DNA from: Quercus robur
Taxonomy: Eukaryota > Streptophyta > Magnoliopsida > Fagales > Fagaceae
Reading direction: 5' to 3'
Length of the DNA: 64,000 nt
Assembly (NCBI RefSeq): GCF_932294415.1
Contig: NC_065535.1
Coordinates: 13,300,282-13,364,281, forward strand
A program made the position numbers and the translations under genes. The notes below the pieces were generated by a model, which was not told the origin of the DNA, did not search any database, and saw only the letters and a list, made by a program, of their open reading frames with translations. Of the stretch, positions 3,297 through 58,210 are shown piece by piece; the first letter of the stretch is position 1, and each line of letters opens with the position of its first letter.

Positions 3297-3546
3297 TTTT
3301 TTTAATTATTGCATGACAACATATTTTATATTAAAAAAGTCTCACATAAGCATTTGACCTAATTTTAACTTCTAACCCAAACTTGATTTCCATTCAAACA
3401 TCCCCAAATCTCCTAGATCCACGTAACATCTCTCTCACATGAATTGTACATTTGTTTAACAACGGTTTAATTTAGGTAAAATTTTATCATTTAAATTTCA
3501 ACAAATTTAAATTCTATTCAAACTAAAAGCTATTATAATAAATTAT

Positions 3547-4731
3547 GCAAAAATCCAAAATTGACCCTCTAAGTTTCACATTTTGTCATTTCAGTCCTCT
3601 AAATTTCAATTTAGTCATTTCAGTCCTCTAAATTTTAAATTTTGTTAATTCAGTTCTTCATTATCCTTCTGTTAAGTGCTATCGTTTACTAAACCAAAAC
3701 GATGCCATTTTGGATGATTTAAAAAAAAAAATATATATTCTTAATTGAACTTTACTGAAAAATGTTAATTAAAAAAAAAAAATGAAACTAAGGGAATGAC
3801 GTACAACAACGCTATCTAGCTTCTCTGTCTCTGAGACAATCAAATCAACCTAATGGGTCAAGGAACTCCGAGCGGTCTTAACCGGAAAGGCTTACCAGGT
3901 GATTGAAAACCCAATGGATCCAACAAGAAGGAGAAGAAATTCGAGCCGGCGGCACCACAAGCTTGAGTGGGTCGCAAACAAAGAAAATAGAAAGGCCTAG
4001 ATGCCGATTCTCGACTGTCAGGCGTTAACTCCACACACAAAGTGCCATCTCTGACTCCTAAAGCTTGAGCGTGTCAAAGAATATCTGTTAAGGAAGGAAG
4101 AGTTAGTAAGCAACCAAGAAAGACACAAACCCCAAGAGGAAAAAGTCGAGGAAGACAAATCTAAAGTCAATGATCTCAAAGGCTCACCTATGAGTGTTGG
4201 AAATCTGGAAGAACTCATAGATGAGAATCACATGATTGTTTCATAGTCGATGGGGTCGGAATAATATGTGGGGATTTTGTCTTTTGTGGATAAGGATCAG
4301 CTGGAGCCTGGTTGTGCAATATTAATGCATAACAAGGTGTTTTATGTTCTGGGGTTGTTGCAAGATGAGGTTGATCCTATGTGATGAAAGTTGAGAAAGC
4401 TCCCATGGAATCGTATGCAGATATTGTTGGTTTGGATGCACAGATTCAGGAGATTAAGGAGGTTGTTGTTGAATTGCCATTAACACATCCTTAGTTTTTT
4501 TTTTTTTTTTTAAAAAAAATTAACTTTTTAAGTAAAATTAAATTAAAATATTAAAAAAAATTCATCCAAAATGGCGTCGTTTTGATTTAGTAAATGGCAA
4601 ACTTAACAGAAAGGTAACGGAGGACTAAATTGATAAAATTTGAAACTTAGGGGACTAAAATGACAAAACTGAAACTTAGAGAGTTAAAATGACAAAAAAT
4701 GAAATTTAGAGTGTTAGTTTTGCATTTTAGC
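3547..4731 (+). mobile_element. Pack-MULE-like element carrying an RPT2 gene fragment
   Basis: Two long inverted repeats of about 200-230 bp flank a decayed host gene fragment. The left arm runs from gcaaaaatcc at 3547 to about 3775; the right arm runs from about 4500 to ttttagc at 4731. Diagnostic matching blocks are 'gtcatttcagtcctctaa' / 'ggggactaaaatgac' and 'aaaacgatgccattttggat' / 'atccaaaatggcgtcgtttt'. Flanks aataaattat (left) and aaaaaattat (right) match at 9 of 10 positions and look like a target-site duplication. Long TIRs, a 9-10 bp duplication and captured host sequence are the hallmarks of Pack-MULEs (Mutator superfamily). No transposase is present, so it is non-autonomous. Confidence 0.75.
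3853..4494 (+). pseudogene. RPT2: 26S proteasome regulatory ATPase subunit RPT2, 5' fragment, decayed
   Basis: The three forward frames in turn read as the N-terminal ~180 residues of plant RPT2: MGQGTPSGLNRKGLPGD at the start, then blocks matching the family such as [41 protein letters not shown] and [11 protein letters not shown], ending at ELPLTHP. The ATPase core (Walker A onward) is absent, so it could never act as a proteasome subunit. Several in-frame stops occur (for example at 3901-3903 and 3964-3966, both TGA where the family has arginine) along with small frameshifts. It sits exactly between the two inverted repeats of the Pack-MULE and is best read as captured host sequence rather than a free retrocopy: no poly(A) tail of its own follows the coding end. 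Confidence 0.85.
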
Positions 4732-5548
4732 AAAAAAATTATAAACTTAAACCCCAAAAGCACATATAACAACCCACGTTTTCTTTACAAAAAAAAAAAA
4801 AAAACCAATGTTTTGACTTTTACTCTAACTAAAAGTCCATCATCAATAATTTAACAACTGTTTAATTTAGATAAAACTTTATCATTTAAATTTTAACAAA
4901 TTTAAATTATATTCAAACTAAAAGTCTATTATAAAAAATTCTAAACTTAAACCTCAAACAACAACCCACATTTTCTTTCTTAAAAAAATCCACGTTTTGA
5001 CTTTTCCTCCAACTAAAAGTTTATTATCAATATTTTAAGAACAACTAATTAGTAAATTAATTTTATACATTTAAAATTCAACAAATTTAAATTCTATCAA
5101 AACTAAAAGTCAATCATAAAAAATTCTAAACTTCAATCCCAGAAAACAAGCTATGTTTTCTTTCTCAAAAAAAAAAAAAAAAAAAAAAACTTTTTGACTT
5201 CTACTCCAATTAAAAGTCTATTCTCAGCATTTTAAGAATAATTAATTAGTAAATTAATTTTATATTATTTTTTATGATATATTTCCTCAAATTAAGGGAT
5301 AACATTTACCAATTGTTTAATTTAAATAAAACTAAAAGTCTATCATCAAAATTTTCTAAACTTAAATCCAACACAACTCACATTTTTATTTTTTATTTTT
5401 CCCTCAAGTTGTATCTTATTAAATTAATATTTTATTAGGATATAAACTATGAGACTCTTGACTAAGGGATAAGATTTAACAATAATTTAATTTAGATAAA
5501 CCTTTATCATCTAAGTTTTAGAAATTTAAATTCTACTTCAACTAATAG

Positions 5549-32215: not shown

Positions 32216-33916
32216 TCAAGGTGGATGTGAGACCAACTTGAGGTTGTCAACCAAAGTGCGAAGACGTCCCTTAGGATGTGACTTGGTGAAGATATCTGCA
32301 AGTTGATCTTTAGAAGAAACTGAGATCAGCTTGAGAGCACCATGGACAAGATGATAACGGATAAAATGACAATCGATCTCGATGTGTTTAGTCCGTTCAT
32401 GGAAGACATCATTGTGAGCAATATGAATGGCACTCTGGTTGTCACAATAAAGAGGAGTAGCAGATGATGTGGATACACCTAAGTCTTTGAGAAGCCACCG
32501 TAGCCAAAGGAGCTCAGATGTGGTATCAGCAAGGGCACGATATTCTGCTTCAGTACTGGAGTGGGCCACATGAGTTTGTTTCTTGCTTCGCCAAGAAATC
32601 AGAGAAGAACTAAGAAGAAAGCAATAACCAGTGGTGGACCTGCGATCAGTGGGATCTCCTGCCCAATCAGCATCAGAAAATGCACGGAGTACAAGAGGAG
32701 ACTGAGCAGAGTAGAAAAGACCATGGAAGAGAGTGCCCTTTAGGTATCGAAGAATGCGCAGAACAGCAGCATAGTGAGTCGATCGTGGAGCAGACAGATA
32801 CTGACTCACCTGGTGAACAACATAGGAAATGTCTGGACGAGTGACAGTGAGATAAACTAGGCTGCCAACTAAGCGTCTGTAAAGAGAGGGATTAGACAAC
32901 GGTTTCCCCCCTGACGGAGTCAGATGCGCATTAAGCTCAACTGGAGTGTCAACAGTCTTGCTATCAGTGAGTCCAACTCGAGATAAGAGTTCAGAGGCAT
33001 ACTTGGCTTGAGTAATATAAAGTCCATCTGTAGAATGAGTAATTTCAAGACCCAAGAAGTAGCTGAGATGTCTAAGATCTTTCATCTCAAATTGCTGACT
33101 GAGAAAATCCTTGAGTTCTTGAATGCCACTGAGGTTATCACCAGTTATGATCATATCATCCACATACAGGAGAAGTAAAATAGTGCCTTTGTCAATGCGA
33201 CGAAGAAATAAGGCAGAATCATAATGACTGGCCATGTAACCTAAGCGAGAGATGGTAGAGCTGAATTTGGCAAACCAAGCTCGTGGAGCTTGTTTAAGGC
33301 CATAAAGAGCACGCCGAAGGTAACAAACCTTATTTGATTCAACAGAGAGACCAGGAGGAGGTTGCATATAAACTTCTTCACTTAAATCCCCATTAAGGAA
33401 TGCATTTTTGACATCCATCTGAAAAAGGTCCCATTTTCTGGCAGCAGCAACAGCTAAGAGAGCTCGAACAGATGAGATACGAGCAACCGGAGCAAAGGTC
33501 TCTTCATAATCAATCCCATACTCCTGTGTAAAACCTTTTGCAACAAGACGAGCTTTGTAGCGCTCAATGGACCCATCAGAGCGAGTCTTAATCTTGTAGA
33601 TCCACTTACAACCAACCACAAATTTCCTAGGGGGGAGAGTCACCAAATCCCAAGTATGGTTTTTAGATAATGCATCAAGTTCCTCTTTCATTGCAATCTG
33701 CCATAAAGGGTCAGTGGAAGCCTCACGATAGGTGTAAGGCTCATGCAGTGTAGCAAGGGCAGTGTAACAATGATAATCAAGTAAATGTGTAGGAATGGAT
33801 CTTACCCGAGTTGAGTGACGAGGTGGAATGTCTTGTGCAAGATCTTCAGGCGGAGCAGGAGCAGGAGACCCAAGCTCAGGGTTGGGTAGCTCGTCTTCAA
33901 CCTGTGCATTTTCCAC
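32216..33916 (-). other. Copia pol block: reverse transcriptase and RNase H (fossil)
   Basis: A long open block of about 566 codons. It shows the Copia reverse transcriptase signature (GCKWIYKIK, RLVAKGFTQ, QMDVKNAFLNG, the YVDD catalytic box) and RNase H (SDADWAGD, SSTEAEYRAL, HIEIDCHFIR). Part of the retroelement, not a host gene. Confidence 0.9.
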
Positions 33917-34099
33917 CTGTTCATTAAAGGGTGAACTAGGAAAGGGATCAAAGGTATCTGGTGGTTGGATAGAGAAGTCTATAAGAGGATCAGGAGCAAC
34001 TACAGAAGGAATATGTGCCTCATCTGGAAAAAGATCTAAAACAGAGGAGGAAGATAGGGAGGCACAGAAGTGAGAGAGCTCGACAAAGGAGTGATGTTC

Positions 34100-35680
34100 T
34101 CAAAAGACAACATTGCGGGAGATACGAAGACGATGAGAGACAGGATCATAACACCGATACCCCTTTTGAGTTTCGCCATAGCCAAGAAAACAACAAAGCC
34201 TTGACCTAGGCTCAAGTTTGTTATGCTCATGTGGCTGAAGAAGAACGAAACAAGCAGAACCGAAGGAGCGAAGGTGGTGATAGTTTGGAGGTGACCCAAA
34301 AAGGCGCTCATATGGAGTTTGATTTTGAATAACAGGACTTGGAATGCGATTAATAGCATGAACAGCATGAAGGGCAGCTTCACCCCAAAAAGGAGCAGGA
34401 ACTTTGACAGAGAGAAGAAGAACACGAACAGTGTCAAGAATATGACGAAGTTTTCGTTCGGCTCTACCATTTTGCTGAGAGGTACCTGGACAAGTTAGTT
34501 GATGAACAGTGCCATAGGAATGCAAAACAGCTTGGAAAGCATATTGAGTGTACTCAAGAGCATTATCAGATCGAAAAATTTTGATACGTTTGGAAAATTG
34601 AGTTTCAACCATTTTTGCAAAATTAGAATATACTTGCAATAATTCAGAACGATGTTTCATATTAAAAATCCAACTATAGCGAGAGTAATCATCAACAAAG
34701 ACAACAAAATATCGAAACCCACCAATACTAGAGACAGAGGAAGGCCCCCAAACATCAGAATGAATAAGGTCAAAGATATCAGTGGATATTGATTCACTAG
34801 TATTGAAAGGCAAAGCTGGTTGTTTTCCTAATTGACATGAAACACAATCAAAATTTTCTGTAGACACTGAACCTAACAAACCTCTAGAAGCTAATTGTTG
34901 TACACGAGAGGAAGATGCGTGACCAAGTCGAGTATGCCAAAGTGCAAGGGAAGGAGTAGAAGAAACTGCAGCAGCTACAACAACAGAAACAGGAGCAACA
35001 AGTGGAAGACGAAGGTTGTCCACGGGAAACATACGCCTAACTCTGGGACCGGTCCCAAGCTCCTGTCCCGTCCTTGGATCCTGCACAATACACCCAAAAT
35101 AATCAAAGATAATGCGATAACCTAACTCAGCTAATTTTTCCACAGAAAATAAATTGTAAGAAAGGTCAGGAACATTAAAGACACCAGGAACCGAGAGACT
35201 GGAGGTCGAAACGGAACCTATATTATGACCAGACATAGTGGAACCATTTGCTGTGTGAATATTAAGAGGGTGTGGTGCAGGTTTAAGTTCAGAAAACAAA
35301 GACGAGTGAGGAGTCATGTGATTGCAACAAGCAGAATCCATAAGCCAAGAGGAAGGAGACATACCAGATAAAGCTGAGAGAGAAGAAGAATAATATGCAT
35401 TACCAACCATACAAATGACATTGGCGATGATATTTTTAAGGTCATCTGTGGACATGGTGAAAGTGCGTCCTGAAGACTTAGACTGTGCAGAGACGGGAGC
35501 CATTGGTTGGACACTCTCAGTGTTAGCAACAGTAGCAGCGGAAATTGATACAGCTGATTTGTTGCAATGATAGCAAGTCTCAATATTGTGGCTAAAACGT
35601 TTGCAAAAACTGCAAAAACGTTTGCTGGATTGTTGGCGACGATTATTGCAACAAGAAGAAGACCTGTCCTTATTTCTCAT
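34100..35680 (-). other. Copia zinc-knuckle, protease and integrase block (fossil)
   Basis: About 526 codons. Near the start is a cysteine-histidine cluster resembling a zinc knuckle, then a protease region (WLMDSACCNHMT), a GAG-pre-integrase segment (LWHTRLGHAS) and the integrase core (DVWGPSSV, VDDYSRYSWIF, QQNGRAERK). It overlaps the expected order of a Copia polyprotein. Part of the retroelement. Confidence 0.9.
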
Positions 35681-37380: not shown

Positions 37381-37735
37381 ATTAGCACAATCGATTGGGT
37401 TGATCGTCATTATCATTTGATAAAGGATAAAATTCTTAGATGAGATATAAAAAAAAATAAATAAATAAAAAAGTTGATGCTTTATCATCATTGGAGAAGA
37501 GAGAGCGTACGAGGGACACTACAGATTGCCATTAATCACGCTCACAAGACAGAAAAGACCTGAGACTCGAATAAAAGATTCCTTTGTCTTCTCAGCATAA
37601 TTTTCATTATATTCTATAGCATATGCTCTCTCTTGCACGCACATAAATTCATACTCTAGTCTCACTCTCTCAAGTTCTCTCAGTGTCTTTACCAGTAAAA
37701 AAAACGAAGAGAAGTGAAGAAGAACACTAACTAAG

Positions 37736-38993
37736 ATGTCGAAGGAAGTGAGTGAAGAAGCTCAGGCTTCTGAGCCAGTGAGAGACTATGTTGACCCACC
37801 ACCGGCACCACTTTTTGATGCTGAAGAGCTTAGTCTCTGGTCCTTTTATAGGGCAGTTATTGCTGAGTTCGTTGCTACCCTACTCTTTCTCTACATCACT
37901 GTCCTCACAGTTATTGGCTACAAGAAGCAAACTGATCCATGCGAAACAGTTGGTCTTCTCGGCGTTGCTTGGGCTTTTGGGGGCATGATTTTCATCCTTG
38001 TTTACAGCACTGCTGGAATATCAGGTTCATATATATGCTCTTTACTTACTTTGTATCCTTTTTTTTTTTGGGTTAACAATATGTTTAATTCTATTGTTTT
38101 GGATATAGGTGGTCATATTAATCCAGCTGTGACTTTCGGTTTGTTCCTGGCAAGGAAGGTTTCATTAATAAGAGCTATTGCTTACATAGTGGCTCAGCTC
38201 TTGGGAGCAATATGTGGAGTAGGGATAGTGAAAGGCATCGCGAAAGACTACTATGATAATTTTGGAGGTGGTACAAACACTGTTTCACCTACTTACTCCA
38301 AAGGAACCGCTTTAGCAGCTGAGATTATTGGCACGTTTGTACTTGTTTATACAGTCTTCTCCGCCACAGATCCTAAGCGAAATGCTCGCGATTCCCATGT
38401 CCCAGTGAGTAGCTATTAATTGGGAGATGAGAGATTTAAACCTTAAGCAACTCTATTACCAAAACTAGCTAGGAATTGTCAGTTGAGCTACAAGCTCTTG
38501 GCGCTGACTAGTTTCTAATTAAGTCTTTTAAATTTTACAAGTAAATACCTATTGTGCTGGCTAGTGGCTACTACTAAGTACTAACTAACATGTCTATATG
38601 TGGAAATTATAGGTTTTGGCTCCCCTGCCAATTGGGTTTGCGGTATTTTTGGTGCACTTGGCCACTATTCCCATCACAGGCACAGGAATAAACCCAGCTC
38701 GGAGCTTTGGAGCTGCTGTAATATACAATAAACAACCAGTTTGGGATGATCAAGTCAGTTTAATTAATTGTAGCTTAATTTAATTGAGGCTTTAGTGACT
38801 AATTAATTAATTATTTGTATTTGTTTATTGTTTGACTGTTGTTGACTCATGAGGTGGTGATGGTGATTTACAGTGGATTTTCTGGGTTGGACCTTTTCTG
38901 GGAGCACTCGCTGCAGCAATATATCATGAATATATTCTTAGAGCCACAGCTCTCAAAGCTTTGGGATCCTTCTCCACTAACCCCGCAGACTAA
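37736..38993 (+). CDS. PIP2: plasma-membrane aquaporin, PIP2 subgroup
   Basis: Four exons, 37736-38024, 38109-38404, 38613-38753 and 38874-38993, with GT-AG introns, give 281 aa. Both NPA boxes are present, Asn101-Pro-Ala and Asn222-Pro-Ala-Arg225. The aromatic/arginine filter residues Phe51, His210 and Arg225 are those of water-conducting PIPs. Gating residues known from spinach SoPIP2;1 sit at identical numbers: Asp28, Glu31, Ser115 and His193. The short acidic N-terminus (DYVDPPPAP) and the C-terminal serines Ser274 and Ser276 fit PIP2 rather than PIP1. Six membrane segments are predicted. The protein conducts water, and possibly hydrogen peroxide, across the plasma membrane as a tetramer; phosphorylation of the serines normally opens the pore and cytosolic acid acts through His193. 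A Copia element occupies the upstream region. Confidence 0.95.
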
Positions 38994-56827: not shown

Positions 56828-58210
56828 ATGTCCCAGATGAGAAAGAGTATTCGTTGGCCCAAGTTGAAATCTCCCTTCAGAAGGGCTGGTTAGTTTTCAA
56901 CATATCTATCTCTCTTCTCTCTTTTTCGTAAAGTTGACGGCATATTTCTACCAATTCCTTCATGGGTTTGAAAGATCTTGGAATTATGTATATTGGGTTA
57001 AGACTATTTTTTATGTTAAGTTTGGTTGGTTTTATTTCTTCATGGTTATAGTTTTGAATTTAACACTGAGAAAAAGTTTTGAGATCCTATATTCATGTTT
57101 AAAAGTGATTGATTGATTGATTGTTGTTGATTTTAATGTTTGGTCTCAGGCAGATCACCGATAGAAGATGCCGATAGCTTGTCAAGCGTAAATGATGAAT
57201 ACATGGAAGCTTTCAGAACAAAATCTTATACAGATATGTGGGACAAAGTTCATGACCAGCTAGAAAGTACAAGCATGAAGAGACCTTCTTCATCGACTTC
57301 TCTTTCACTTCACACGCATCTCTCCCAAAGCTTACTTGAACCGCGGCAAGAAACCCTAGCGGACATGATACAAGGCATGGATCTTCATTACCTTCTAATT
57401 GACTATTTTAAAGCCAGCTTAGAAGCATGTAAGATTTGTGAGACACTCCTTCAAAGTGTACATCAAACGCATGCTAATTATCGAAAAATCAAAAGAGTTA
57501 TCAAGCTAAGTAGAAGTGTACACGATTCTGCAGATTACACTGATGACCAATGTCAGGTTATTTTTGGAAAGCTTGCTGCATTTGCATCAATGAAAAACCC
57601 ATTATCGATTATTAGCCCAGAACAATTTCGTGAAACTCGTGATGGCTACATGGTGTTGCTCCAAAGGCTTACATCAAAACATAGAAAAATTAAAAGGAAT
57701 GTAAGATTTGGTAAAATATGGAAGAAAGTTGGCGGGGTTGCTCTTGTTATGTCTCATAGTGCAATTCTGATTCTGTTGCTACTCTTTGCATTGCATAGCA
57801 TTGTGGGAATTGTTGCTGCACCAGCGCTTCTTGCTTGTTCCTTGGGTCTATGTACGAAGAAAATGAAGGGAGCTTGGGGAGGGCTTAAGGCAAAAGTGCT
57901 TGGAAAACTTGGTGACCAAATTGATGTTGCTGCCAAAGGAGTTTATATATTAGTCAATGATTTTGATACGATGAGTCGGATGGTTAAGAGATTACATGAC
58001 GAAGTAGAACACCGAAAAGCTGTGGCGGATATATGTGTTAAGAGCGGAAAATTTGAGATATTGAAGGAGGTTGTGAGGGACTTGCATGTCCATGAGTCAA
58101 GCTTCCAGGAACAATTAGAAGAGCTTGAAGAACATATCTACTTGTGCTTTCTCACAATAAACAGATCTAGGAGGCTTGTAATTCAAGAGATAATGGTAGC
58201 CCACCATTGA
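56828..58210 (+). CDS. UPF0496 family membrane protein (At3g19330-like)
   Basis: Two exons, 56828-56888 and 57150-58210, give 373 aa. The first exon (MSQMRKSIRWPKLKSP) is short and basic; it joins in phase at Gly21, after which the protein continues RSPIEDADSLSSVNDEYMEAFRTKSY, the conserved UPF0496 opening. Much of the rest is helical. A hydrophobic stretch near residues 225-260 ([20 protein letters not shown]) can form one or two membrane helices, and the last third (REVVRDLHVHESSFQEQLEELEEHI) is coiled-coil-like. The family is plant-specific and its biochemical role is not established. The start was chosen because exon 1 follows a TATA-like box and a clean leader; the internal Met in exon 2 would drop the basic N-terminus. 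Confidence 0.88.

Follow-up and report, generated by a model that had tools for sequence, protein, structure and literature searches.

A probable Pack-MULE carrying the 5′ part of the proteasome ATPase gene RPT2 in Quercus robur

Results

A 1187 bp element with long inverted repeats encloses a piece of RPT2

The window, as we call the whole 64,000-nucleotide stretch of DNA analyzed here, harbors a 1187 bp element at positions 3546–4732. With a probability of roughly 0.94, this is a Pack-MULE, a non-autonomous type of Mutator-like element, and it captured a piece of RPT2 and then spread. The first-pass annotation had read the element in the same way, and this reading is borne out by the long repeats, a 9-bp duplication, a donor gene that lies elsewhere and lacks the repeats, and copies at several sites. 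The span given earlier, 3547–4731, described the right element and was one base short at both ends. The inverted repeats and the RPT2 piece fill the 1187 bp, and no transposase gene lies inside.

3537–3545, no strand: left target-site duplication, AATAAATTA, matching the right copy at 8 of 9 positions
3546–3793, + strand: left terminal inverted repeat, inner edge approximate; tip TGCAAAAATCCAAAATTGACC, family consensus GGCTAAAATGCAAAACTGACCC
3807–4491, + strand: captured RPT2 piece (5′ leader and codons 1–214) with in-frame stops and indels, 87% identical to the donor gene L005; edges set by eye from the alignment
3853–3855, + strand: RPT2 start codon
4495–4732, − strand: right terminal inverted repeat, inner edge approximate
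4733–4741, no strand: right target-site duplication, AAAAAATTA

A direct search paired three inverted segments, 3543–3677 with 4601–4735 (79% identity), 3685–3720 with 4559–4594 (92%) and 3730–3793 with 4489–4552 (70%). The whole arms are ~248 bp long and ~76% identical over 253–257 aligned positions. A 30-base tip consensus, built from relatives, agrees at 26 of 30 positions both at 3546 on the forward strand and at 4732 on the reverse strand, and at no other place in the window does it reach 22 of 30. As a control, three base-shuffled windows were searched on one strand, and the best match in each was 19 or 20. The direct search, the arm alignment and the tips, unique in the window, thus uphold the earlier claim of long inverted repeats.

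Between the inverted repeats, RPT2 is visible in pieces across three frames, and a PDB search with a 63-residue stretch of the window translation hit Rpt2 chains of the proteasome (best E 3.3e-25). The capture ends at codon 214, while the GEPGTGKT motif, which we take to be Walker A, begins at codon 232, 17 codons beyond. This end point, the Rpt2 chain match and the 87% DNA identity to the donor agree with the earlier description of an RPT2 N-terminal segment that stops before the ATPase core. Compared with the donor frame, the window copy contains six in-frame stops and three indels; its changed codons number 29 synonymous and 33 non-synonymous among 211 compared, versus 63 and 23 among 169 in the RPT2 paralogue L007 (raw codon counts, not rates). 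A coding role for the cargo was considered and rejected on account of the stops, the indels and the codon-change counts relative to the paralogue.

Elsewhere in the window, two adjoining open frames at 32216–35680 on the reverse strand encode a retrotransposon polyprotein, presumably Copia-type, that includes integrase core and RVT_2 domains. On the forward strand are an aquaporin (MIP family) coding stretch at 37718–38419 and an open frame at 57137–58210 that matches DUF677 (E 4.3e-20).

The element is flanked by a 9-bp target-site duplication

The first-pass annotation had described a flanking duplication of 9–10 bp with 9 of 10 positions matching; the duplication is present, and is better set as 9 bp with 8 of 9 matching. 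The window duplication is imperfect and AT-rich. It was evaluated against the repeat family, sampled as 21 distinct elements that form part of the genome-search rows (the window element, L002, L003, L004, L006 and L012–L027); L008–L011 and L028 are repeats of places already in this sample. Both tips are kept in 17 of the 21, and L004, L006, L017 and L023, which lack one or both, were dropped. Flanking 9-mers with at most one mismatch were found in 13 of the 17 members, compared with 4 of 272 mispaired flanks, and at widths of 8, 10 and 11 in none of the 17, with the tip start set following inspection of the window and five other loci, which favors width 9; of the 13 members unseen before that point, 9 pass the 9-bp test. 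The members that fail are L014, L015, L016 and L022, and not all members are independent, some being close kin (the interiors of L014 and L015 are 95% alike, those of L016 and L017 91%). The 9-mer duplications of the window element, L002 and L003 differ from site to site.

The insertion lies within a local AT-rich repeat that extends over 3455–5360 with a unit spacing of ~184–197 bp.

3455–3529, + strand: local AT-rich repeat unit left of the insertion (family D3), 93% identical to 4850–4924
4850–4948, + strand: uninterrupted unit of the local repeat; 4933–4941, AAAAAATTC, is the counterpart of the empty target site
5035–5133, + strand: second uninterrupted unit; 5118–5126, AAAAAATTC, is the counterpart of the empty target site

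Because uninterrupted sister units are present in the window, the pre-insertion site can be read directly. The units at 4910–4948 and 5095–5133 read ...AAAAAATTCTAAACTT, and at the corresponding place the window reads AATAAATTA, the element, then AAAAAATTATAAACTT. The empty site in the sister units and the family flank control together indicate that the 9-bp duplication is real despite the AT-rich DNA.

The RPT2 copies derive from one donor gene

A search of the plant's own genome (785.7 Mb, 42 contigs) identified the donor as the RPT2 gene L005 on contig C38, which is 87% identical to the window copy over the captured part. Its first coding exon is open over 243 codons, with an intron after LLAK, and a search of the 3691-bp donor locus for the inverted repeats gave no match. 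A genome search with the cargo only yielded 17 candidates, all scored. Of their 18 matches, one is the donor and five are element copies; nine rows lie in a cluster at C2:91.06–91.18 Mb, and the last three are short matches on C40. The C2 cluster consists of diverged RPT2 sequences, some with a partial match only. The five element copies reside on five contigs, C2 (the window), C35, C41, C4 and C37, and the donor on a sixth; only three of the five (window, L002 and L003) retain both tips.

In alignment, the right cargo junction is common to the window copy, L003 and L004, with L002 similar, and the left junction is common to the window copy, L002 and L006. In L006 the cargo breaks off after 551 bases, and L003 and L004 each contain additional sequence on the left side. 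In a tree rooted on the paralogue L007, the five copies form one clade beside the donor with support of 99.3/100, which falls to 87.5/92 when CG and CHG sites are left out. At the 16 sites where all five copies agree with each other and differ from the donor, the paralogue sides with the donor in 9 cases and with the copies in 4. Since the copies are monophyletic and share junctions, the simplest reading of these alignments is that one capture was followed by transposition.

At two places, ~2406 on the reverse strand of L006 and ~1490 in L003, the RPT2 cargo or its edge abuts DNA containing GGGGCTGTTTGG / CCAAACAGCCCC, which to our eyes resembles the tip of a hAT-type miniature element.

The repeat family carries a second gene fragment

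Members of the repeat family without RPT2 also exist. The parental gene without repeats and the RPT2-less relatives, both of which the first-pass annotation proposed to look for, are present in the genome, alongside other copies that have both repeats and cargo. A second interior, with a GC content of 0.42–0.51, is common to five of the 21 elements (L012, L016, L017, L021 and L023). On its minus strand, the L012 interior encodes 38 residues that match the 75-kDa subunit of complex I (6x89_S1 in the PDB, phmmer E 4.5e-13); the other four are tied to L012 by DNA similarity only. The NDUFS1 fragment lies at L012:640–1020, and a piece of it is present twice in L012. An NDUFS1 5′ exon was located at C2:56267648 (L053) as an open frame whose residues 18–162 match residues 1–145 of the plant subunit 7a23_C (E 1.1e-61). 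Where the two match, L053 and the L012 interior share 80% identity, and a repeat search of the 1801 bases of L053 gave no hit. L054, a weaker relative, does match part of the repeat over 27 bases close to its edge (E 1.7e-4), and four further, weaker NDUFS1-like places occur in the genome. By these sequence comparisons the family captured at least twice (RPT2 and NDUFS1), each time from the 5′ part of the gene.

The interiors of the 21 elements thus comprise five with RPT2, five with NDUFS1 and eleven others, two of which were reached by Pfam scans. These scans, in which stops were read as X, covered one frame of L012, six of L013, six of the extra left sequence of L003 and four of six of L019, and returned only two matches, Fer2_4 in L012 and Nre_N in L003, neither of which reached the curated cut-off. 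Two RPT2-less relatives show an apparent doubled inverted repeat at one end (L019:362–658 and L021:449–905); a doubled-repeat form is described for dicot MULEs in PMC3310237.

The copies have decayed at CG and CHG sites

Relative to the donor, and counting either strand, the window copy shows C-to-T changes at 16 of 76 CG, 15 of 71 CHG and 12 of 205 CHH sites (CG and CHG versus CHH, Fisher p 2.4e-5), and the opposite transition at 2 of 328 A/T sites. The other four copies, which are not independent tests of decay because their ancestry is shared, give 22–26% at CG, 24–30% at CHG and 5–9% at CHH. The corresponding values for the paralogue are 3 of 68, 4 of 59 and 15 of 166 (4, 7 and 9%; p 0.27). 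With CG and CHG sites set aside, divergence between the copies and the donor is 5.0–7.5%. Over ~480–510 bases, the CpG observed/expected ratio is 0.61–0.71 in the copies, compared with 0.97 for the donor and 1.02 for the paralogue; over a 483-base stretch of the donor exon, the ratios for CG and CHG are 0.97 and 1.08, versus 0.61 and 0.76 in the window copy.

C-to-T loss at CG and CHG is the mark expected from long methylation, that is, of silenced transposon DNA. The copies are pseudogenes, and from this bias we infer that they probably decayed while methylated and silenced. No such loss is seen in the donor exon, so no visible methylation mark has been left on the donor, and the heavy decay of the copies next to none visible in this exon suggests that the donor was spared. 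PMC4858842 deals with MULE interiors, their methylation and 24-nt small RNAs.

Assignment of the element and alternative origins

In PMC3310237, Pack-MULEs are characterized by terminal inverted repeats of typically 100–500 bp and target-site duplications of 9–11 bp. The window element has repeats of ~248 bp at 76% identity, a 9-bp duplication and a host-gene fragment whose repeat-free donor lies elsewhere. The MULE transposase domain PF10551 is abundant in the genome: 150 of 1249 first-look candidates were scored, giving at least 150 matches, and the rows listed lie over the cut-off. Among the matches listed, no transposase-bearing element with these repeats was found, the closest listed PF10551–repeat pair being ~63 kb apart (by eye). 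Because no transposase-bearing partner was linked, the superfamily assignment rests on repeat length and the 9-bp duplications.

The repeats and flanks are AT-rich and degenerate, as would also be the case for chance inverted repeats in AT-rich DNA, or for an element of another DNA transposon superfamily such as hAT, CACTA or PIF. Such an origin is extremely improbable given the repeat length of ~248 bp, tips that are unique in the window, and a family duplication length of 9 (13 of 17 members, none at 8, 10 or 11, with the tip start set after six loci had been seen). A processed retrocopy that was later flanked by inverted repeats would account for the missing intron in the captured part, but the donor is also intronless in this stretch, and missing introns therefore cannot distinguish capture of DNA from capture of mRNA. 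Moreover, the piece runs from the 5′ leader to a point within the first coding exon, lacks a poly(A) end and has edges that are repeated in copies at other sites, so that we consider a retrocopy highly improbable. Neither of the outcomes named in the first-pass annotation as speaking against a Pack-MULE was seen, these being inverted repeats of unrelated low-complexity DNA and an RPT2 piece located elsewhere between identical flanks, without terminal repeats and with a poly(A) tail.

Discussion

Under the Pack-MULE reading, an ancestral element with long inverted repeats would have taken up from the RPT2 gene on C38 a copy of its leader and the greater part of its first coding exon, a step for which the donor, the breakpoints and the single origin are seen in our data. 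The copying probably occurred during gap repair in the element, as in published models, and the loaded element was presumably moved by a transposase supplied from elsewhere. Insertion at new sites would have made the 9-bp duplications observed for the window element, L002 and L003, and the element is now found at five places. The cargo, without a coding role, would then have decayed as methylated, silenced DNA, as the CG and CHG bias suggests, and, if transcribed, could feed small RNAs matching the donor.

Whether transcripts of the copies regulate the parent RPT2 gene through such small RNAs, an effect raised in the first-pass annotation, is a separate matter. The window copy still matches the donor exactly in 55 stretches of 21 nt and in 36 of 24 nt, the longest exact run being 40, and because these 55 perfect 21-nt matches remain, an effect on the parent is possible. 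Captured pieces are also reported as siRNA reservoirs in maize in the review PMC13317346, which treats both such reservoirs and essential donors. The donor exon, in contrast, shows no CG or CHG loss over its 483-base stretch, and the copies decay freely; regulation of the parent is therefore very unlikely. We regard it as most unlikely that the repeat family has a preference for taking up 5′ exons of essential housekeeping genes such as RPT2 and NDUFS1 and gains by it. If it did, small RNAs against the copies would also strike the essential donors, and the host would be unable to silence the family fully. The locus offers a natural case for asking whether silencing of captured pieces spills onto a donor that the plant presumably cannot spare, with a single donor, five copies whose breakpoints are known, windows of perfect match, and the NDUFS1 capture as a replicate in the same family.

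A full-text search of a partial literature collection found no paper pairing a Pack-MULE with RPT2, although one may be in print elsewhere; it listed two that mention Pack-MULEs together with the proteasome. A close parallel is PM-ZIBP of tomato, likewise a dicot, in which, according to PMC3310237, one captured fragment was amplified to 14 copies with AT-rich 9-bp duplications. In that system, 13 of the 14 copies have tandem repeats at both ends, whereas we saw no doubled repeat in the RPT2 copies. In rice, 36% of Pack-MULEs (481 of 1337) are multicopy by the figures in PMC8277862. With the Pack-MULEs of rice, tomato, maize and Arabidopsis, the window element has in common long inverted repeats, a 9-bp duplication, an enclosed gene fragment, a remote donor and several copies per capture, and we saw no structural difference from them. 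Thus, the evidence supports well that this is a known phenomenon, ordinary in kind, found here with RPT2 and NDUFS1 as the donors.
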